Assembly (NCBI GenBank): GCA_016195815.1
Contig: JACPYX010000007.1
Span: forward strand, 620,001-684,000
Direction: 5' to 3'
DNA: 64,000 nt
Source of the DNA: Chloroflexota bacterium
GTDB taxonomy: Bacteria > Chloroflexota > Anaerolineae > Anaerolineales > Villigracilaceae
Numbering within the stretch: position 1 is the stretch's first letter; each line of letters opens with the position of its first letter. A program made the translations under genes and the position numbers. Below, one piece after another: positions 7,260 through 63,805 of the stretch. The notes beneath the pieces are model-generated. The model searched no databases, had not been told where the DNA came from, and saw only the letters and a program-made list of their open reading frames with translations.

Positions 7260-7697
7260 ATGAAAAGAAAACTTCCTGAACACGGATGGTGTTTTGTGTG
7301 CGGGTCTGAAAACCCGCACAGCATTGGAATAACCATGTGGGTAAACGACGATGGCGTAATGACCTCGGAATTTACACTGACAAACGCACAACAAGGCCCG
7401 CCCGGATATTCACATGGCGGTGCGTCGGCGGCGATCCTCGATGAGGCAATGGGATTGGTGGTCTGGGCGGCGGGTATGAAAGTCGCAGCGGTCAACCTGG
7501 AAATCAATTATCACAAGCCCCTGCCCCTCCAACAGCATTTAACGCTGGAGGCGCGCATCACAGAAAAAGATGAGCGCAAGGTATTCTCTGCCGGGGAAAT
7601 CCGTTTGCCCGATGGAACCATCGCGGTCAGCGGGCGCGGGATTTATGTCGTCGCACCGCAGTTGTTTGAAAAGGTGGGGCTGATTCGCGCTGAGTAA
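7260..7697 (+). CDS. PaaI-type hotdog-fold thioesterase
   Basis: 145 aa. Shows the PaaI/4HBT pattern: a GWCFVCGSENPHSIGI opening, then GYSHGGASAAILDEAMGL (about residues 54-71), where the HGG loop and the helix Asp/Glu form the active site, and NLEINYHKPLPL further on. Such enzymes hydrolyse acyl-CoA or acyl-ACP thioesters as dimers or tetramers in the cytoplasm. It starts 15 nt after recJ with no recognisable Shine-Dalgarno. Acyl specificity cannot be told; a housekeeping role in clearing acyl-CoA is plausible. Confidence 0.85.
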   Translation: MKRKLPEHGWCFVCGSENPHSIGITMWVNDDGVMTSEFTLTNAQQGPPGYSHGGASAAILDEAMGLVVWAAGMKVAAVNLEINYHKPLPLQQHLTLEARITEKDERKVFSAGEIRLPDGTIAVSGRGIYVVAPQLFEKVGLIRAE

Positions 7698-7705
7698 AAC
7701 TGATC

Positions 7706-8194
7706 TCATTCTGTTTCTTCCAATCTGCTAACCGCCGCAAAGCGCGCATTTGTTAGTCTCGTCAAATCAGCGACAGGCAATTTGATATTCAACCCCCTCT
7801 GCCCGCCCGAAACATGGATTTCGGAAAAATTTTGCGCGGAAGAATCAACGATGACTTGAAAGCCTTTGTTGATCAACGCCAGCGGAGAGATTCCGCCCGC
7901 CTGCAGGCCGGTCAAGGCTTCGGCTTCGCGCTCGGTGGGCAGATAGACTTTCTTCTCATTCAGCGCGGCGGCCAGCAATTTCAAATCCACATTTGAGTTG
8001 CCGGGGACAACCGCCAGTAACGGCTTGCGGGGTTTGTCGCGGGTGACGACAATTGTTTTGAAAACGGAGGCCGGATCAAGGTCCAGAAGACGAGCCGTTT
8101 CGAGCGCGCCGAGTTTTTCGGCAGGCAGGTCATACGTCGTATATTTAATTTTGCGCGAGTCCAACAGTCGCGTAACGTTATTGACAATCGTCAT
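7706..8194 (-). CDS. ybaK: Cys-tRNA(Pro)/Cys-tRNA(Cys) deacylase YbaK/EbsC
   Basis: 162 aa, ATG at 8194 with AAGGAAAG upstream. Matches the YbaK/EbsC branch of the INS/YbaK editing superfamily: ALETARLLDLDPASVFKTIVV near residues 30-50 with the conserved catalytic Lys (FKT), VPGNSNVDLKLLAA, and GGISPLAL with the glycine pair near residue 115. It hydrolyses Cys mis-attached to tRNA(Pro) in trans. It is transcribed divergently from the C69 peptidase gene across a 74-bp gap, with its own TATAAT. Convergent with the thioesterase gene, leaving only 8 bp between stops. Confidence 0.9.
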   Translation of the reverse strand: MTIVNNVTRLLDSRKIKYTTYDLPAEKLGALETARLLDLDPASVFKTIVVTRDKPRKPLLAVVPGNSNVDLKLLAAALNEKKVYLPTEREAEALTGLQAGGISPLALINKGFQVIVDSSAQNFSEIHVSGGQRGLNIKLPVADLTRLTNARFAAVSRLEETE

Positions 8195-8214
8195 GGCTTT
8201 CCTTATTTGACAAA

Positions 8215-8220
8215 ATTATA
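8215..8220 (-). promoter_or_regulatory. -10 box of ybaK
   Basis: Minus-strand TATAAT at 8220-8215, 20 nt before the ATG at 8194. A TTGACG at 8246-8241 lies at a long spacing of 20 bp. Its upstream part overlaps the divergent promoter of the C69 gene. Confidence 0.5.
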
Positions 8221-8232
8221 ACCTTGAAGAGG

Positions 8233-8261
8233 TTGCCGTCCGTCAAATTTCAGGATATAGT
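8233..8261 (+). promoter_or_regulatory. Promoter of the C69 peptidase gene, leaderless type
   Basis: TTGCCG (8233-8238), 17-bp spacer, TATAGT (8256-8261), 7 nt to the ATG at 8269. Confidence 0.55.
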
Positions 8262-8268
8262 AACGGCC

Positions 8269-9609
8269 ATGTGTGATACTTTGATTGCCACCCCCGAAAC
8301 GACCAAAGACGGCGTGATGATTTTTGGAAAAAACTCCGATCGTGAGCCGAATGAGGCGCATCATGTCGTGAGTTACCCGGCCATGGATCACGCGCAGGAT
8401 AGCCGCGTCAAATGCACCTATATTGACATCCCGCAGGCCAGACATACGTATGCGATCCTGCTGGCGAAACCCTTCTGGATCTGGGGCGCAGAAATGGGCG
8501 CTAACGAACACGGGCTGGTGATTGGCAACGAGGCACTCTTCACGCGCATCCCTTACAACAAAAACGGCGGCCTGCTCGGCATGGATCTGTTGCGGCTGGC
8601 CCTCGAACGCGCCGCGACGGCGCATGAGGGCGTGAAGATCATCACTGACTTGCTGGCGCAATTTAGTCAGGGCGGAAATCACGGCCTGGCACACGAAACG
8701 TATTATCACAACAGTTACATTTTGGCCGACCCGCACGACGCCTGGGTGCTCGAAACTGCCGGGCGGCATTGGGCCGCCAAAAAGATCAAAGGAATCTATT
8801 CGATCTCGAACGGCATCACCATCGAAAACGATTTCGATCTCGCTTCGCCCGAACTTGTTTCGTTCGCGGTCCAACGGGGCTGGTGCAAAAACGAATCCGA
8901 TTTCAGCTTTGCGCGCTGCTATTCAGATTTGATTTTTACGCGCTTCTCCGATTGCCGCAAACGCCGCGCCCGAAGCATGTACCTGCTTGACGCGCAACGC
9001 GGGCAGATTACCGTCGAGACTATGATGTCCGCACTGCGCGACCATGGTCAGGCCGACGGCTCGCAACGCTCCGCGGATGAAAGCCTGGCGGGCGCGGATA
9101 TTTGCATGCACGCCGGGTTCGGCCCCATTCGCATCTCGCAGACGACCGGCTCGATGGTCTCTTATTTGGATGCGAAGTCCCCGCTACATTTCGCGACTGC
9201 AACCGCTGCGCCCTGCACGAGCATTTTCAAACCCATCTGGATTGACGCTTCATTGCCGGACCTCGGGCCGGCCCCCGTTGAAACATACGATTCATCCACC
9301 CTGTTCTGGCGTCACGAAAGATTGCATCGTTCCACTTTACGCGACCATGAGAACTTAATTGCAACTTTCGCGCCTGAGCGCAACGCACTGGAACGCGAGT
9401 TTGTGGCTGAGGCATTTTCAGCACGGACAAAAAACGCCGCCGCCCGCGCAAAGGTAAGTGCGGAATGCTTCGCCCGCGCCGACGAAGCCGAAGCCAAATG
9501 GTTGGCGCGCGTACAAAGCGCGCCGTCCGATCAAAGCTGGCATCACGCCTCGGCCTGGAAACAATACAATCGGGACGCAAAAATCCCGGCGAAAGTTCTG
9601 CAATCTTGA
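8269..9609 (+). CDS. Peptidase C69 / secernin-type Ntn-hydrolase
   Basis: 446 aa from the ATG at 8269. A longer frame reaches 8224, but the shorter start places Cys at position 2 (MCDTLIATPETT). In this N-terminal nucleophile hydrolase family Met removal exposes Cys as the catalytic residue, so 8269 must be the functional start; the promoter placement agrees. Family features: FGKNSDREPNEAH (19-31), WGAEMGANEHGLVIGNEALF, and a YILADPHDAWVLETAGRHW segment. C69 enzymes cleave dipeptides or other amide bonds. No signal peptide, so a cytoplasmic enzyme is expected. The divergent neighbour is ybaK. Substrate unknown. Confidence 0.87.
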   Translation: MCDTLIATPETTKDGVMIFGKNSDREPNEAHHVVSYPAMDHAQDSRVKCTYIDIPQARHTYAILLAKPFWIWGAEMGANEHGLVIGNEALFTRIPYNKNGGLLGMDLLRLALERAATAHEGVKIITDLLAQFSQGGNHGLAHETYYHNSYILADPHDAWVLETAGRHWAAKKIKGIYSISNGITIENDFDLASPELVSFAVQRGWCKNESDFSFARCYSDLIFTRFSDCRKRRARSMYLLDAQRGQITVETMMSALRDHGQADGSQRSADESLAGADICMHAGFGPIRISQTTGSMVSYLDAKSPLHFATATAAPCTSIFKPIWIDASLPDLGPAPVETYDSSTLFWRHERLHRSTLRDHENLIATFAPERNALEREFVAEAFSARTKNAAARAKVSAECFARADEAEAKWLARVQSAPSDQSWHHASAWKQYNRDAKIPAKVLQS

Positions 9610-17754: not shown

Positions 17755-18957
17755 ATGAGAATCCTTCGCTGGCTGGCTCCGCTTCTTTTATTTTTTCTGT
17801 TCGCGTGTCAGGCAGGGACTTCACCCACCGTCACCATTCTTGACGGCAAGAACAGCTACACATTGATAACAAATGAACGCGAAGCGGGCAAACTTATTGT
17901 GCAGGCCGGGATCGTGCTCGGTTCCGCCGACCGCCTCTTCTTCAATGGTTACGCGGTGTCGGTCAGCCAGCAGCTTGCGCCGGCCAAAACGACCACACTT
18001 CAAATCCGCCGCGCAATGACAATCACAATCAACGGCAGGGCAATTCAAAGCGCGGCATTGACCGTTGGCGAGGCCATGTCTGAAGCGGGCTTGCAGTTAT
18101 ACGCGGCCGATCAACTCGACCCGCCAGCCGATACGCCGATCGCGAACGCGATGACTGTGACTTACACTCCTTCACGCGAATTCATCGTCAGTGTGGATGG
18201 CAGGCAGGTACGCATCCGCTCTGCGGCGCGGACGGTGGGCGGTGCGCTGGCCGAGGCGGGGATTCCGCTGCTCGGGCTGGACTCCAGCCAGCCGTCTGAG
18301 AATGAGGCGCTTCCACAAGATGGACAGATACGCATCGTGCGCATTAGCGAATCAGTTGTGCTGGCGCAAAAGTCCATCCCGTTTAATAGTGAGTTTCAAT
18401 CATCCGCGAACGTCGAACTTGACCGCCAGGAAATCCTGCAACCCGGCCAGCCCGGCTTGGCCGTGAGCCGCGTGAGAATTCGATATCAAGATGGTGTGGA
18501 GGTCGCGCGGCAAACCGAATCAGAAACTGTGGTGCGTCCGCCGAAAGATCGCGTGGTGGGATACGGGACAAAACCCGTTGTCAAAACTGCTACGGTGGAC
18601 GGCGTGCAGATTCAATACTGGCGCGCGGTGCAAATGTTCGCCACTGCCTACTCGCCTTGCAATTCGGCGGCAGACCGCTGTTATCCATCTACCGCAAGCG
18701 GCAAGTCCGTGCAAAAAGGCGTGGTGGCTTTTATCTATCGTTGGTACATCAACATGCGCGGACAGGCATTGTATATCCCCGGTTACGGGTTCGCCAGCGT
18801 GGAAGATACGGGCGGAGGGATTCCCGGCAAGGCCTGGATCGATCTTGGCTACACCGACGCGCAGTATGGGTCGGAAGGCGGGGGCCAATGGGGCAAATGG
18901 GTCACGGTTTATTTTCTGGCGCCGGTGCCAACGAACATCATGTATGTGCTGGAATAA
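17755..18957 (+). CDS. Lipoprotein with DUF348, G5 and 3D domains (RpfB/YabE-like)
   Basis: 400 aa from ATG 17755. The open frame extends to 17620 but lies upstream of the TATAAT and inside the previous gene. Signal with lipobox LFAC, Cys18. Then ubiquitin-like DUF348 repeats (TVTILDGKNSYTLITNE, MTITINGRAIQSAALTVGEA, EFIVSVDGRQVRIRSAARTVGGAL), a G5-like domain at about 205-280, and a C-terminal 3D domain (about 295-400) with the conserved Asp residues in VEDTGGGIPGKAWIDLGY. 3D domains act in wall hydrolases such as MltA and Rpf-like proteins. It should bind or cut peptidoglycan at the outer face. It starts a tight run with the LCP gene. Confidence 0.87.
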   Translation: MRILRWLAPLLLFFLFACQAGTSPTVTILDGKNSYTLITNEREAGKLIVQAGIVLGSADRLFFNGYAVSVSQQLAPAKTTTLQIRRAMTITINGRAIQSAALTVGEAMSEAGLQLYAADQLDPPADTPIANAMTVTYTPSREFIVSVDGRQVRIRSAARTVGGALAEAGIPLLGLDSSQPSENEALPQDGQIRIVRISESVVLAQKSIPFNSEFQSSANVELDRQEILQPGQPGLAVSRVRIRYQDGVEVARQTESETVVRPPKDRVVGYGTKPVVKTATVDGVQIQYWRAVQMFATAYSPCNSAADRCYPSTASGKSVQKGVVAFIYRWYINMRGQALYIPGYGFASVEDTGGGIPGKAWIDLGYTDAQYGSEGGGQWGKWVTVYFLAPVPTNIMYVLE

Positions 18958-20082
18958 ATGACATCCCCTCAAAAGATTATCATCACGTTTCTTGGCATAC
19001 TGGCATCTGCCCTTATCGCGGCGGTCGGTTATGCCGGCTGGCAGGTTTATCAAGGCTGGGCCGGGTTGCCGCTTGGCGCAGTGCTGCCAACTTCGCCTTA
19101 TACCCCAATTGGAATGCCCGCCACATGGACCGCAATGCCGCCCGATTCCGTTGGATTGAATCCACTTGTCACAACAACACCGTATGGCGCTCCTCGCTGC
19201 GGCGGCCCGCGCGCGATGACCATCCTCGCCATAGGTTCGGACACGCGCGGCTCTGGATACACCTGGGGCTTATCCGACGTAATGCGCGCCGTACGCGTCG
19301 ACTTTGTGACGCCGCGCGTAACCGTGCTGGATTTTCCGCGCGACCTGTGGGTGGAAATTCCATATATCGCCGATAATTTAAACGGACAGGATCGCGAAAA
19401 ACTCAACCAGGCCTATCTTTACGGGAACCCCGGAGACGGCTTCCGTTACTGGGATGACCCAAGCGCCGGGCCGGGCCTGCTGGCGCGCACACTTGACTTA
19501 AACTTCGGCCTCAAAGTAGATCATTATCTTGCAGTCAACATGAAGACTTTCGTCAAAATGGTGGACGCGGTCGGGGGCATTGACGTAACACTGGATAAGC
19601 CCCTGCCCAACAGCAACGACGCCGACCTGCAAGCTGGCACTCATCATCTCGATGGCACCAAGGCATTGGAAATCGCCCGCAATCGCGTCGACGGCGTTTT
19701 CGCGCGCGGCGATTATCAAAACATCGTTTTATGCGCCCTGCAAAAGAAACTCACCAGCCCAAAAGTTGTGACGCAAATCCCGGGCTTGATAAAATCATTT
19801 CAAGGCTCAGTGCAAACCGACCTGACTCCCAACATGATGAGTCAGTTGGCATGCCTCGGCACACAACTGCCCCGCTCGAACATCTCCTTCTATAATTTCC
19901 CATCGGACCTTTTTACAGGCACGCGCATTTACGACCCGGTGTTCAAGAAAAATGTTTTTGTGTGGGACGTCAACTTCGGCATCCTGCGTGGCTACGTTGC
20001 GCAATTCCAAGCCGGCACGTGGCCTGCCTCGCCGGAAGCCGTCTCCGCAGCCGAAACCGAAAGCGCATCCTTTTGCAACTAA
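18958..20082 (+). CDS. LytR-CpsA-Psr (LCP) family wall-polymer transferase
   Basis: 374 aa; its ATG follows the stop of the 3D gene with no gap. One N-terminal transmembrane helix (about 7-29), a Pro-rich linker, then the LCP domain: ILAIGSDTRG (about 89-98), VTVLDFPRDLWVEIP with the catalytic-site Arg, and LDGTKALEIARNRVDGVFARGDYQN. LCP enzymes move glycopolymers from undecaprenyl lipid to peptidoglycan or proteins on the outside of the cell. Its pairing with the 3D protein points to envelope assembly. The usual C-terminal accessory domain is short here. Confidence 0.9.
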   Translation: MTSPQKIIITFLGILASALIAAVGYAGWQVYQGWAGLPLGAVLPTSPYTPIGMPATWTAMPPDSVGLNPLVTTTPYGAPRCGGPRAMTILAIGSDTRGSGYTWGLSDVMRAVRVDFVTPRVTVLDFPRDLWVEIPYIADNLNGQDREKLNQAYLYGNPGDGFRYWDDPSAGPGLLARTLDLNFGLKVDHYLAVNMKTFVKMVDAVGGIDVTLDKPLPNSNDADLQAGTHHLDGTKALEIARNRVDGVFARGDYQNIVLCALQKKLTSPKVVTQIPGLIKSFQGSVQTDLTPNMMSQLACLGTQLPRSNISFYNFPSDLFTGTRIYDPVFKKNVFVWDVNFGILRGYVAQFQAGTWPASPEAVSAAETESASFCN

Positions 20083-56998: not shown

Positions 56999-57556
56999 CT
57001 ATCCTTTCAACAACTCATTCTGAGGCGCATCGGCATCGGGCAATTCGAGCGGGGGCAATTCAGTGATCGAATTGATGCCAAAGTGCTGTAAAAATTCCGG
57101 GGAGGTTGAATACAAGATCGGGCGGCCCGGCCCATCGGTGCGACCTGTCTCCTGGATCAGACCTTTGCTCAACAGGCTCTTCATCATCCCATCCGAGTTG
57201 ACGCCGCGCAGAGAATCCACTTGCGGACGCGTGACCGGTTGCTGATAGGCGATGATCGCCAGTGTTTCGAGCGCGGCGCGGCTGAGGCGGCTGGTCGCTT
57301 CGAGGCCGAGGAACCGCTCAACAGCCCCGGCCAGTTGCGGCGCAGTGGTCAATTGAACGCGCCCGGCATGACGCTGGAGTCGCAGGCCGCGCGTTTGGAG
57401 CGATTCGTCCAATTCGATCAAGGCACGCTCCACCGTCGAAGCAGTCACATCCAACGCTTCGGCCAGATGCGCTGGCGTCACAGGCTCAGCCGCAACAAAA
57501 AGCAATCCTTCGATTTGGACGGAAAGCGGCAGGTTGTTTGTTTCGTTTTCGCTCAT
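56999..57556 (-). CDS. scpB: Segregation and condensation protein B
   Basis: 185 aa from ATG 57556 (MSENETNNLPLSVQIEGLLFVAAEPVTPAHLAEALD...). Two winged-helix domains with IEGLLFVAAEPV, ALETLAIIAYQQPVTRPQVDSLRGVNSDGMMKSLLSKGLI and GRPILYSTSPEFLQHFGI. It joins ScpA and SMC in the condensin complex. It is directly upstream of rluB on the minus strand. A longer frame to 57577 overlaps the divergent promoter. Confidence 0.94.
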   Translation of the reverse strand: MSENETNNLPLSVQIEGLLFVAAEPVTPAHLAEALDVTASTVERALIELDESLQTRGLRLQRHAGRVQLTTAPQLAGAVERFLGLEATSRLSRAALETLAIIAYQQPVTRPQVDSLRGVNSDGMMKSLLSKGLIQETGRTDGPGRPILYSTSPEFLQHFGINSITELPPLELPDADAPQNELLKG

Positions 57557-57558
57557 GC

Positions 57559-57564
57559 TATAAT
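57559..57564 (+). promoter_or_regulatory. -10 box of the lipoprotein gene
   Basis: Perfect TATAAT, 31 nt before the ATG at 57596 and 3 nt upstream of the divergent scpB start codon. TTGTTT lies 19 bp upstream. Confidence 0.5.
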
Positions 57565-57595
57565 AACTCCCGTTCAATCCCTTTCGAGAGTGAAG

Positions 57596-58156
57596 ATGAT
57601 GAAAAAAATTTTTATTGCCCTAAGCACTTTAGCTTTTGCATCGCTGGCCTGTTCGATCTTTATTGGCGGGCCGGCGTATCCCGATACGCCCATCCCGATT
57701 TCCACCGAAGCCGCGCAGAATTTGCAAGATCAAGCCAGGCAGGCCATTGCAGATGGAGCCCAAACCGGAACTGTAACATTACAGATCACAGAGAACCAAT
57801 TGACTTCTTACCTGGCGTTCAAACTTGATTCGCAGGCCAACCCGCTTATTACCGACCCGCAAGTGCAATTACGCGACGGGCAAATGAAAGTGTTCGGCAA
57901 AGCGAAACGAGGCATATTCAACGCCAACATCAGCATCGCCATGAATGTTACTGTGGACGAGCAGGGCAAACCCAAGATCGAGATCACCCAAGCCGACTTT
58001 GGCCCGCTGCCCACTCCGCAAGGACTCAATGATGCGGTCAGCGCCGTCGTTGGCGAAGCTTTCACTGGTTCGCTCGGACCTGTCGCAACCGGCTTCCGTT
58101 TAGAGAGCATCGCCATCGCTGACGGCACTATGACAATCACGGGCCGTGTCAAATAG
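57596..58156 (+). CDS. Lipoprotein, unknown function
   Basis: 186 aa from the first of two adjacent ATGs (57596 or 57599). Signal peptide KKIFIALSTLAFASLACS with lipobox LAC (Cys18/19). Mature part has a Pro/Thr linker then a domain with TGTVTLQITENQLTSYLAFKLDSQ, VQLRDGQMKVFGKAKRG and PVATGFRLESIAIADGTMTITGR. It looks like a beta-rich barrel of the kind that binds lipid or polymer, but no named family is recognised. Anchored on the outer face. It lies just upstream of the G5/propeller lipoprotein gene, probably co-transcribed. Confidence 0.75.
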   Translation: MMKKIFIALSTLAFASLACSIFIGGPAYPDTPIPISTEAAQNLQDQARQAIADGAQTGTVTLQITENQLTSYLAFKLDSQANPLITDPQVQLRDGQMKVFGKAKRGIFNANISIAMNVTVDEQGKPKIEITQADFGPLPTPQGLNDAVSAVVGEAFTGSLGPVATGFRLESIAIADGTMTITGRVK

Positions 58157-58173
58157 CGGTTGGGATTATACCA

Positions 58174-59790
58174 GTGGTTCAAACGGCTTCGCCACACAAT
58201 CAACGAAGAACACAGAGAATCTTTTGTATTCTCTTTGTGATCCTATTGGCGGCGCCGATCTTATCGGGTTGCCAGCTCACACAAGCCGGGCGAAGTCAGA
58301 TCAATATCAAGATCACCGCCGAGGGAAAGACGCAACAAGTCAGTGTGCCGGCCGGAAGCACCGTGACGCAGGCGTTACAGCAAATTGGGATTGCGCCGGG
58401 CGATCTTGATAAATCCGAGCCGCCGTTTTATACAATATTAAGTAATGGCGATTCGGTCAAGCTGACGCGTGTCGAAGAAAAGTTCGAGACCGAAACACAG
58501 ACCATTCCATTTGACCGGCAAATTGTTCGGAACGAATCGCTGCCCGAAGGACAGGAACGGCTTGTCCAGGCCGGAGTCAACGGTCAGCAGGAAGTAACGT
58601 ATCGGCGCATACTTGAGGACGGCTTGGAAACCAGCAAATCAGCGGTCAAGACTGTCGTTATGCAAACTGCAGTGCCTGAGATCATCATGGTCGGCGCACA
58701 GGCGTCGTTCGCTCCGCTTCCCATTCCCGGCAAGATCGCGTTTATGGCGGGCGGCAACGCCTGGATCATGGACACGTCCACTGCCAATCGCCGTTTGCTT
58801 GTCAACAGCGGCGATCTCGATGGGCGCATTTTTTCGCTTTCACCAGACGGCGGATACTTGCTCTACACGCGCAAATCAAAAAAGCCCGCCGACCAGCAGA
58901 TCAACACCCTGTGGGCTGTCAACACAAAATCGGCCAGCCCATCGCCGATAAGCCTGAATGCCAGCAACGTGGTCCATTTCGCGGCCTGGGTTCCAAATAC
59001 ATTGAACACAATTGCTTATTCCACAGTTGAGCCGCGCAGCGCAGCCCCCGGCTGGCAGGCCAATAACGATTTGTATAAAATCCAAATCGGTGGAACGCCG
59101 CGCAAAATTCTTGAAGCCAACAGCGGCGGCGTGTACGGATGGTGGGGTATGTCGTTTGCGTTCTCGCCAGATGGCCGCCTTGCGTATGCGCGGCCAGACG
59201 GCATCGGACTCGTGAGTCAAGATGGCGGCTATCTCTCGCCGCTGCTCGACATCACACCCCTGCAAACTCGCAGCGATTGGGCTTGGATTCCAGGAATAAC
59301 CTGGGGCGGCGATGGCAAGACACTTTATTTTGTGGACCACGCGCCCGCACCCGCACCCGTAACCGCCGAAGAATCGCCCCTCTTCGACCTGCAAGCGGCT
59401 TCGCTTTCGAACGACGCGACCGTACAACTGTCAGCGCAAGTTGGCATGTTCGCTTACCCATCCGCCTCCCCCGTCCGCGCGAACGGTGCGGAAAAGGCCT
59501 ATCAGGTCGCGTATCTGCAAGCCATCTTCCCCGATCAAAGCGAGACCAGCCGCTATCGTTTGATCGTCATGGATCGCGACGGGTCGAACCGCCGCGTTTT
59601 ATTCCCCTCCGCCGATTCGACCGGCATCGAACCGCAGACTCCGGTCTGGGCGCCGCAGCCCATTCAAGGTCAGACTGGTGATTTCCTGGCCGTTATTTAT
59701 CAAGGCAATCTCTGGTTAATAGACAGCGGAAGCGGCCAGGCCTATCAGATTACAGGCGATGGATTGATATCAAGAATTGATTGGAAATAA
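58174..59790 (+). CDS. Lipoprotein with DUF348, G5 and PD40 beta-propeller domains
   Basis: 538 aa from GTG 58174. Signal: [23 protein letters not shown] with lipobox Cys33. A ubiquitin-like DUF348 domain follows ([31 protein letters not shown]), then a canonical G5 domain ([38 protein letters not shown]), then from about residue 185 a TolB/WD40-like propeller of PD40 repeats ([71 protein letters not shown]). G5 domains bind N-acetyl sugars. This fusion is unusual; it could anchor a propeller to peptidoglycan. Same domain set at its start as the 17755 protein. Confidence 0.85.
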
Positions 59791-59841: not shown

Positions 59842-60797
<956 letters not shown>

Positions 60798-60801
<4 letters not shown>

Positions 60802-61253
60802 TTTCAATTCTACATAACCCTGTTGAGCGAACCCGCTTCCTGAAATTTCTCGTCGTCGGCACATTGGGCGCAGCCATAGACTTTGGCATCGCCAACCTGC
60901 TGACTCATTTCGCAGGTATGCCGCTCGTCTATGCCGGGACGATTTCCTTCGCTTGCGCGGTCATCAGCAATTTCGTCTGGAACCGCCATTGGACGTACCC
61001 CGAATCGCGCTCGCGTCATCTCGCGCATCAACTCGGAATGTTCTTCATCGTCAACGTGGCGGGCATTGCCATCCGCGTTCCCATTTTGAGTTTTGGCGAA
61101 CCTCCGCTGCAAAACTTTTTCCAAAACCTTCAACTTAAACTGCCCTTCACTCCGGAGTTCCTTGCCCGCAATCTCACACTTGCAATAGCTGTCGGAATTG
61201 TGATGCTGTGGAACTTCTTCGTCAACCGCTATTGGACGTATAATGATATTTAA
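60798..61253 (+). CDS. GtrA family membrane protein
   Basis: 151 aa, ATGA overlap with the epimerase gene. Four helices; the GtrA pattern is [23 protein letters not shown] near the start and [19 protein letters not shown], with [12 protein letters not shown] at the end. GtrA proteins are thought to flip polyprenyl-phosphate sugars across the membrane for outside glycosyltransferases. This fits the membrane GT-C enzymes encoded a kilobase downstream (62132 and 63818). Confidence 0.9.
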
Positions 61254-61268
61254 AGCAAGAGGCAGACT

Positions 61269-61634
61269 ATGGCGATTATTCCGATCTATAATTCCAAAGG
61301 CGATCCAGACGCATTCATGGAGTATCCGCACATTTTCAATCGCAACGGTGACTGGGTTGGCTGGGTCACACAAAAACGGGAGATATATGCGGCAGATGGA
61401 GTGTATGTCGGATATCTGACCAACGACCCGCGCATCCTGCGCAAGCGCGCCACATCCGCTCTCAAACCTCGACTTGAACCGCCCGCCGCGCCGAAAAGAA
61501 TTTACCCTCCCGCCACCCTGCCCCTCGCCCCGCTGATGAGCGAATTGGCTCCCGGCACCATTGATGTGCTGCTCGACGAACCTGAACGCCTTCACACACT
61601 CGATGTCGGCGAACTCCGCGCAGACCTTGATTGA
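61269..61634 (+). CDS. Hypothetical protein, possible beta-flower-type repeat domain
   Basis: 121 aa. The first about 55 residues show three similar short units, each an aromatic/Gly turn: IPIYNSKGDPDAFM, HIFNRNGDWVGWVTQ, EIYAADGVYVGYLTND, as in a small repeated beta fold. The rest is Pro-rich and ends in an acidic segment (LLDEPERLHTLDVGELRADLD). No catalytic motif, no signal peptide. The repeat reading is from visual comparison and the function is unknown. Gene has AAGAGGCAG upstream. Confidence 0.6.
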   Translation: MAIIPIYNSKGDPDAFMEYPHIFNRNGDWVGWVTQKREIYAADGVYVGYLTNDPRILRKRATSALKPRLEPPAAPKRIYPPATLPLAPLMSELAPGTIDVLLDEPERLHTLDVGELRADLD

Positions 61635-62131: not shown

Positions 62132-63805
62132 ATGCTGGCAACACTTATTATCTGGGCCTATTCTTTCGCGCTGTTCTACATTTATGGCTGGGGTGGACTG
62201 ATATTTCTGCGAAAAATCTTTCAGCTTCAAGATGAACCCCCTGTATCTGGGCCAGTCATTGTCGTTGCAGGGATGGCTATTCTCACCACGCTCGCCTCAT
62301 TTTTATCCCTCTTCATTCCGCTTGGAAGGCTGGCCGCAATATTGATTTTGATTGGCGGGATATTGATCGCAATTACAACGCGCCCATGGAAAAAAACCAG
62401 GCTTCCGGCTTATCATTTTCTGGTTTGGGTTTTGCTTGCCGCCGCGGGGCTAACTACCCTTGAAAATGCCATACATGCGCCAACCAATTCCGACACAGCC
62501 CTATACCACGCACAAGCCATCCGATGGATTGAAAGTTTTCGCGTCGTTCCGGGGTTAGCCAACCTGCACAACCGGCTTGGATTCAATTCTTCGTGGTTTG
62601 TTCTGAATGCGGCATTTAGCTTTGCCTTCCTTGGCATCCAGTCCTTTCATTTGATGAACAGCGTGATTATGCTGGTTGGGTTATTCTATTTTTCTCAGGG
62701 CCTGCAAAACATACTTCAAAGAAAAATAACAACCTCATCTATTGCAAAAACCGTCCTGTTCTTTTTATCTCTATATCTTTATGGAAACGACATAGCATCC
62801 CCGAGCACGGATCTCCCCGCCACTTTGCTGACCTGGATGGTCTCCATTCTGTTGCTGGAAAAACTAGAGTCGCGCGGCATACAGTTTGATATTTTCAGTG
62901 TGGTAATTTTCCTCTTAGCCATTTTTGCGCTCACCGTCAAGCTCTCAGTACTTCCATTAGCGGTGATTGCATTCCTGGTCGTTCTGCAACAGATTAGAAT
63001 AAGAGATTCCGTATGCACGCTTAGGCTGGTCAGTCTCGGCTTGCTTGTTTTATTACCATGGCTCATTCGAAACATCATTTTATCGGGGTATCTGGTTTTT
63101 CCTGTAAGCCAAATTGATATTTTTGGATTTGATTGGAAATATCCTCGCGAAAATGCAGATGCAAACCGATTGGCAATTATTTGGTTCGCGCGCTTTCCGG
63201 GCAAAAACTGGTCGGATTTCGTAGGCCTGTCATTTAATGCGTGGGTGCCGCAATGGTTCAACGGTCTTTCTTTCATTCAAAGAAACCTCTTTTCTGTCGC
63301 AATCATGTCGCCATTAATTCTTGTATTGTTCATGAAAGAACGCGGCTTAAGGCTCTTTAAACAATTCTTTCTGCCTTATTTTGTGAATTATATGGGGGTG
63401 ATTTTTTGGTTTCTGACGGCCCCGGATGTACGGTTTGGATATGGCTTTTTGACCATGTCAATTGTTCTGGCTTTTTCTCCGCTTATTGCTCTCGTGCTGA
63501 CACAATTTACATCATACACTGGCTTCGTAACGGCTATACTATTTCCCCTACTGATTTTTTATCAAGGATATTCGCTGGCCGAAGCAGCCGATCCTGTTTT
63601 CATTAAACAGCATCTTATTCTTCCCGCTGACTACCTCCCCTCCCGCGCCAACCCCTGCCCGATTAGCAACGGCACGGTATTCTGTCGAAAAGAAGGCGGA
63701 CAATGTAACTATGCTGATTTCCCCTGCATTCCATCGCCGCGTCCAAATGTGGAGATGCGCGGAGCAGACTGGCAGGACGGTTTCAGAACTGTTCAAGTGC
63801 CGTAA
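62132..63805 (+). CDS. Polytopic membrane protein, GT-C-like glycosyltransferase
   Basis: 557 aa with more than ten hydrophobic helices. After the fourth helix comes the conserved-looking loop PTNSDTALYHAQAIRWIESF (about 117-136), VVPGLANLHNRLGFNSSWF, with the Asp of SDTALYH in the place of the GT-C catalytic loop. A Cys-rich C-terminal tail (PCPISNGTVFCRKEGGQCNYADFPC) could carry disulfides outside the cell. The protein resembles large leptospiral-type membrane GTs; no sugar can be assigned. Runs with the thioesterase gene and the next GT gene. Confidence 0.68.
   Translation: MLATLIIWAYSFALFYIYGWGGLIFLRKIFQLQDEPPVSGPVIVVAGMAILTTLASFLSLFIPLGRLAAILILIGGILIAITTRPWKKTRLPAYHFLVWVLLAAAGLTTLENAIHAPTNSDTALYHAQAIRWIESFRVVPGLANLHNRLGFNSSWFVLNAAFSFAFLGIQSFHLMNSVIMLVGLFYFSQGLQNILQRKITTSSIAKTVLFFLSLYLYGNDIASPSTDLPATLLTWMVSILLLEKLESRGIQFDIFSVVIFLLAIFALTVKLSVLPLAVIAFLVVLQQIRIRDSVCTLRLVSLGLLVLLPWLIRNIILSGYLVFPVSQIDIFGFDWKYPRENADANRLAIIWFARFPGKNWSDFVGLSFNAWVPQWFNGLSFIQRNLFSVAIMSPLILVLFMKERGLRLFKQFFLPYFVNYMGVIFWFLTAPDVRFGYGFLTMSIVLAFSPLIALVLTQFTSYTGFVTAILFPLLIFYQGYSLAEAADPVFIKQHLILPADYLPSRANPCPISNGTVFCRKEGGQCNYADFPCIPSPRPNVEMRGADWQDGFRTVQVP

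Follow-up and report, generated by a model that had tools for sequence, protein, structure and literature searches.

The window, i.e. the whole stretch of 64,000 nucleotides analysed here, contains a gene whose product starts like the wall-associated proteins RpfB and YabE and ends in a β-propeller. This raises the question of what a DUF348-G5 head does when its tail is not a wall-cutting domain. The initial annotation had described the protein as such a head followed by a PD40 propeller with no catalytic wall domain, and this architecture was confirmed by Pfam and by an AlphaFold2 model. The gene and its parts are:

58174 to 59790, + strand: gene of the DUF348-G5-propeller lipoprotein (GTG start, 538 amino acids; relatives found)
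58174 to 58272, + strand: lipoprotein signal peptide up to the lipobox LSGC with Cys33 (from the alignment and a model helix at residues 12-30)
58306 to 58413, + strand: DUF348, the G5-linked ubiquitin-like domain, residues 45-80 (Pfam, 24.7 bits)
58486 to 58698, + strand: G5 domain, residues 105-175 (Pfam, 69.9 bits; found at the same place in the genome search)
58720 to 59787, + strand: C-terminal β-propeller, residues 183-538 (model, fold matches and PD40; seven blades assigned)

Both head domains scored above their curated Pfam cut-offs, G5 with 69.9 bits against 23 and DUF348 barely with 24.7 bits against 24, which assigns the protein to those with a wall-associated G5/DUF348 head. PD40 was detected with 22.7 bits (cut-off 20.9). 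A Pfam scan of the aligned relatives (E up to 1) found G5 in 45/45, DUF348 in 43/45 and PD40 in 40/45. The lipobox Cys33 was conserved in all 45 rows of the alignment and, together with the signal peptide, identifies the protein as a predicted bacterial lipoprotein. It is presumably anchored in the membrane and extracytoplasmic, judging from its sequence. Neither an Rpf nor an Sps/3D catalytic domain was detected in the 538 residues by Pfam at E values up to 10.

The AlphaFold2 model was built on the 45-row alignment and reached a mean pLDDT of 88.5 and a pTM of 0.70. Residues 183-538 were modelled as seven four-stranded blades, the count being read from the DSSP strand list and not from the coordinates. 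The last strand (532-537) closes the first blade and the chain stops at residue 538 in the model, so that no room is left for a wall hydrolase. Structure prediction had been named as the check on the C-terminal half, and it returned a propeller and not a known wall hydrolase. The top Foldseek match was RpfB (5e27) for the head, over about 140 columns with an E value of 1.4e-11, followed by propellers. For the propeller, the best VIA-align row was the S9 peptidase 8wt1_C (Z 24.2, 294 aligned residues, rmsd 2.8), and just below it unrelated propellers were broadly tied. Given that such generic, unrelated propellers dominate the matches, the tail fold is a propeller without a clear functional relative. 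The description of the tail as TolB-like thus held for the propeller itself, while the TolB label proved to be loose. A PD40-type envelope propeller is shared with TolB, but the head of the 538-residue protein is of the DUF348-G5 type instead, and membership in the TolB family was rejected with 18.5 bits for TIGR02800 against a cut-off of 343.15 (NCBIfam).

Conservation was unevenly distributed over the two faces of the propeller. The loops of the BC+DA face had a mean Jensen-Shannon score of 0.610 (113 residues) and those of the AB+CD face one of 0.495 (67 residues; one-sided Mann-Whitney p 1.8e-5, with residues that are not independent and strands taken from the model). Aromatic residues were abundant in the conserved loops, namely W294, Y321, W323, W324, W369 and W371. 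Conservation of the top face is common among propellers. The modelled face suggests a putative binding face, for which no particular ligand is specified.

The head has a second bearer in the source genome. A G5 search of the whole genome retrieved exactly two proteins and no third, and the propeller-type gene is present in a single copy. The other G5 protein and its neighbour are:

17755 to 18957, + strand: the other G5 protein of the genome, with three DUF348 domains, G5 and a weak 3D match (for comparison; Pfam and genome G5 search)
18958 to 20082, + strand: LytR-CpsA-Psr protein right after the 3D-type paralogue (context; Pfam, 103.6 bits)

The LytR-CpsA-Psr family joins glycopolymers to the wall. 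The paralogue has the DUF348-G5-3D plan in its shape, as initially proposed, while its 3D match itself stayed below the Pfam cut-off (17.4 against 23.8 bits). A C-terminal, Asp-rich 3D-like motif was recognised by eye in another 18 G5 proteins from relatives, and Pfam confirmed 3D in both of those that were scanned (L138 and L139). The two heads in the window are distant, with 21% identity. A tree of 67 heads, comprising all 19 available 3D-type heads and alternate propeller-type heads (48/95; PR_L178 forms a long branch), was split into the two types by one branch. This branch had a support of 95/91 and was present in 94% of 200 bootstrap trees. A single branch between the types indicates that the tail exchange was one old event and not peculiar to the window. 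The earlier suggestion of paralogous heads with exchanged tails is supported in this form, and repeated recent swapping of tails found no support, as the tree contains one change. PD40 lipoproteins that stand alone and lack a G5 head (L214-L217) occur in the same family and were similar to part of the propeller; they could be kin of the tail donor.

The DUF348-G5 head is shared with RpfB from actinobacteria and YabE/SpsB from firmicutes. Those proteins end in a muralytic Rpf or Sps/3D tail, whereas that of the 538-residue protein is a propeller; they carry two or three DUF348 domains, the latter one DUF348 and a lipobox. The genomic context differs too, with tatD/ksgA for RpfB/YabE and scpB, an LmeA-like gene, a decarboxylase gene and GtrA here. 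An exchange of Rpf and Sps tails behind the DUF348-G5 head was described as non-orthologous domain displacement in the available portion of Ravagnani et al. (PMC1084345). The present protein extends the range of such tails, i.e. a head of the RpfB/YabE type can carry a non-lytic one.

The DUF348-G5-propeller lipoproteins are a stable and widespread family of the Anaerolineae. Among near genomes, 60/61 contained the family, the source genome included (37/37 of its own family and 23/24 from other families of the order), and the same was true for 138/247 genomes sampled from the class at E values up to 1e-30. Four genomes of the same order had no match (G040, G212, G244 and G332). A draw of 301 genomes from the phylum gave 30 matches, including G228 and G280, which have 3D-type heads and do not belong to the propeller family. 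After removal of the 3D-type matches, the family was found in 27/38 genomes within the class and in full length in only 1/263 outside, where genomes in unlisted rows are assigned to other classes in view of how the list was ordered; the one exception, G070, is a genome with 8% contamination. Six short peptide patterns, which detect close relatives only, were searched in one genome per species (84,980 species) and led to 78 loci in Chloroflexota or its members. A cultured strain, Ornatilinea apprima P3M-1, also carries a member of the family (L065). The genomes used were mostly draft MAGs. A chance open reading frame or a one-off fusion is ruled out by the many relatives. A mobile-element origin found no support among plasmids, where the search returned three records that each matched by the G5 part only.

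The genes next to the propeller gene in the window are:

56999 to 57577, - strand: scpB, a divergent marker of the conserved locus that is not thought to be functionally involved (Pfam SMC_ScpB)
57596 to 58156, + strand: LmeA-like phospholipid-binding lipoprotein, 186 amino acids (Pfam LmeA, 33.1 bits, cut-off 27.3)
59842 to 60801, + strand: SDR protein like UDP-glucuronate decarboxylase (UDP-xylose synthase) (PDB match, E 2.8e-106)
60798 to 61253, + strand: GtrA-family membrane protein, its start overlapping the end of the preceding gene (Pfam GtrA, 80.6 bits, above the cut-off)

Only 17 bp separate the LmeA-like gene from the propeller gene. The closest PDB entry for the SDR protein was UDP-glucuronic acid decarboxylase 1, and the next family followed with an E value of 1.5e-41. 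This arrangement of the order was counted in 78 loci (L003-L080), each time considering only those with sufficient flank. An LmeA-like gene lay immediately upstream on the same strand in 68/76 loci, a UDP-glucuronate decarboxylase gene within 500 bp downstream in 70/74, GtrA next in line in 67/71, and scpB upstream and divergent in 69/72. Part of this synteny may be plain locus conservation because scpB, which is unrelated to glycans, was also kept. In mycobacteria, LmeA binds phospholipids and belongs to lipomannan synthesis, according to the accessible part of PMC8972800.

Beyond the order, we chose 49 loci (L149-L197) manually, not at random, from class and phylum matches for a spread of families and contig sizes. 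With L078-L080, three of the most divergent loci, they amount to 52, or 51 distinct ones as L149 equals L080; L150, L156 and L157 come from the window's order and L152 from another class. A Wzy_C-type gene (O-antigen ligase/polymerase) followed downstream on the same strand in 34/51 distinct loci from at least 20 families, with only a short Wzy protein in L177. In 28 of these 34 loci, a protein of more than 800 residues begins within 100 bp downstream or overlaps the propeller gene. L078-L080 are examples of this kind, where the propeller gene is followed by one for a Wzy_C protein of about 1045 residues and then by the decarboxylase gene. Decarboxylase genes were found downstream in 27/51 and GtrA genes in 14/51 distinct loci. 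The downstream Wzy gene was missing in 17/51, and 13 of these also lacked decarboxylase and GtrA (one of them, L151, being a contig end with a flank of 206 bp). Across the class, the scpB side varies and the glycan genes recur in several arrangements.

The large Wzy_C proteins are fusions of about 1040 residues (e.g. L078:7506-10640, L080:4418-7558, L179:9016-12159 and L185:4416-7547). In a profile of five fusions, the N-terminal part matched PslG (E 1.8e-23) and GH39 xylosidases, and the C-terminal part matched the polysaccharide polymerase/ligase 7tpg (E 1.3e-4). Across 32 sequences, the ligase part showed nearly invariant His and Asp motifs. Where the second PslG-like acidic residue aligns, which we take to be catalytic in PslG, E was present in 11/32 and N in 14/32 sequences, and the hydrolase part is thus probably inactive in many fusions; it may be a binding relic. 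A search for the fusion, in which none of the genomes served as a positive control, was empty for the source genome, whose two Wzy_C proteins are located elsewhere, away from the propeller gene. With the fusion not found there, the partner in the window's order would have to be another enzyme.

From the domains, the predicted fold, the conservation of one face, the distribution and the gene neighbourhood, which were established directly, we infer where the protein sits, its binding to the wall, and its partner, sugar and function as follows. The propeller lipoprotein would be a wall-docked accessory of surface-polysaccharide assembly or anchoring with a putative wall-binding head, a reading based on sequence to which we give an even chance. 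Sitting at the outer surface of the membrane, it would touch peptidoglycan or another amino-sugar polymer with its DUF348-G5 head; penicillin-binding transpeptidases are present in the source genome. The conserved propeller face would hold a membrane glycan enzyme by its extracytoplasmic part, this enzyme being a Wzy-type ligase/polymerase or one equivalent in function; alternatively, it would hold the growing surface polysaccharide. Going by the names of their families, the decarboxylase could feed the polymer with UDP-xylose and the GtrA protein by flipping a lipid-linked sugar. The outcome would be a pentose- or uronate-containing surface glycan that is assembled and lodged in the wall. The gene is flanked by genes of surface-glycan biosynthesis, and no kinase or regulator was found among the neighbours scanned, which suits an organiser of polysaccharide assembly better than a wall sensor. 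Accordingly, the initial proposal that the protein senses or organises the wall rather than cutting it is borne out for the absence of a cutting domain; organisation is favoured, in the form of polysaccharide assembly, and sensing of the wall fits less well.

The closest precedent is MMAR_1667/Rv3035 from mycobacteria, a predicted propeller lipoprotein that scaffolds a membrane-bound wall glycosyltransferase, to which the present protein is likened by description only (PMC12802301, available part). MMAR_1667 has a predicted eight-bladed WD40-type propeller and a predicted lipoprotein signal; FecB and AftB, an arabinosyltransferase, were recovered with it in pull-downs, and its loss resembles the loss of these partners (same part of PMC12802301). 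It differs in its eight predicted blades versus seven here, and the portion of this source at hand mentions no G5 or DUF348 domain for it. MMAR_1667 was seen in a physical complex, whereas the link to glycan enzymes here comes from gene adjacency.

A more specific version of the polysaccharide-assembly role is speculative and, taken as a whole, rather improbable. It assumes a system specific to Anaerolineae, in which the PslG-Wzy fusion would pass a xylose- or uronate-derived chain to the wall-docked propeller lipoprotein for fixation to the wall, and in which an RpfB/YabE-like ancestor would have exchanged its muralytic tail for the propeller. If this were true, one paralogue would use this type of head to cut the wall and the other to attach glycan.

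Among the other explanations, a purely structural tether, with the head on the wall, the propeller on another envelope protein or layer and no part in glycan synthesis, is unlikely, although several observations agree with it. The head family is wall-associated according to the literature, and the operon-like gene order may reflect old locus conservation, given that scpB was retained as well. Chloroflexota envelopes also leave room for a tether, being multilayered with no clear outer membrane and with a poorly defined layer make-up, as stated in the accessible part of PMC13319060. The class-wide comparison argues against it, as the scpB side changes there and the glycan genes nevertheless recur in several arrangements.

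Quite unlikely is a wall or envelope sensor, in which the G5 head and the propeller would read the state of the wall and signal to a membrane protein in the manner of LpqB. LpqB, itself a lipoprotein, combines a small domain at its N-terminus with a propeller and is proposed to relay the wall state to MtrAB in actinobacteria. The 538-residue protein shares this coarse layout of lipoprotein, small head and propeller, and its propeller has one conserved face. None of the families that we take to be those of LpqB (LpqB propeller and GerMN) is included in the four Pfam families listed for the window protein, where HMMER filters drop weak matches. The mtrAB-lpqB operon forms a three-component system, according to the available part of PMC10714768; this context is missing here, as neither a kinase nor a response regulator was found among the flanking genes scanned in the window. 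A response-regulator-like cluster occurred in only 5/52 loci and at variable distance, and the recurrent neighbours are glycan enzymes.

It is very unlikely that the propeller itself acts on glycans as a lyase or glycosidase of a kind without a Pfam model. The surroundings of the conserved face contain conserved residues of the types W, H, E, R and D (H389, E286, R288, W294, W323, W324 and W369), and propeller enzymes such as oligogalacturonate lyase are among the fold matches. Against this, Pfam and NCBIfam reported no glycosidase or lyase family in the protein, and generic propellers dominate the fold matches. The propellers of S9 peptidases (8wt1 and 3azo) are the best fold match, but these enzymes have their catalytic domain outside the propeller; membership in the S9 prolyl oligopeptidases was rejected, as there is no α/β-hydrolase domain and the chain closes at residue 538 in the model. 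A wall hydrolase is dismissed, since Pfam and NCBIfam gave no catalytic domain and the model terminates with the propeller.

Neither the head nor the propeller nor the general kind of role is new. In a literature search that covered subscription journals thinly, none of the papers listed combined 'G5 domain' with either 'PD40' or 'WD40-like'. The combination of G5 and propeller, its conservation throughout the Anaerolineae and the tie to the PslG-Wzy fusion appear to be new, as no description of them was found in the literature searched. Nearly all members of one large order have the family, which is also common in the class and clearly linked to glycan assembly by its gene order. It gives a way into the question of how these bacteria build or anchor their outer layers.

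Some further genes were observed around the propeller gene. In the window, GtrA is followed by a small 'beta flower' protein (61269-61634; PF21784), whose place is kept in many loci of the order. An open reading frame at 62132-63805 encodes 557 residues with about eleven hydrophobic stretches and without a Pfam hit; it was rejected as a conserved partner, as tblastn gave an empty result in 109 loci. In L074, an APH-family phosphotransferase gene (7480-8379) follows the propeller gene and replaces the decarboxylase and GtrA genes. A macro-domain gene was located just upstream of the decarboxylase gene in 7/52 loci, namely L078, L171, L174, L175, L182, L183 and L187, with the member of L078 checked by Pfam.
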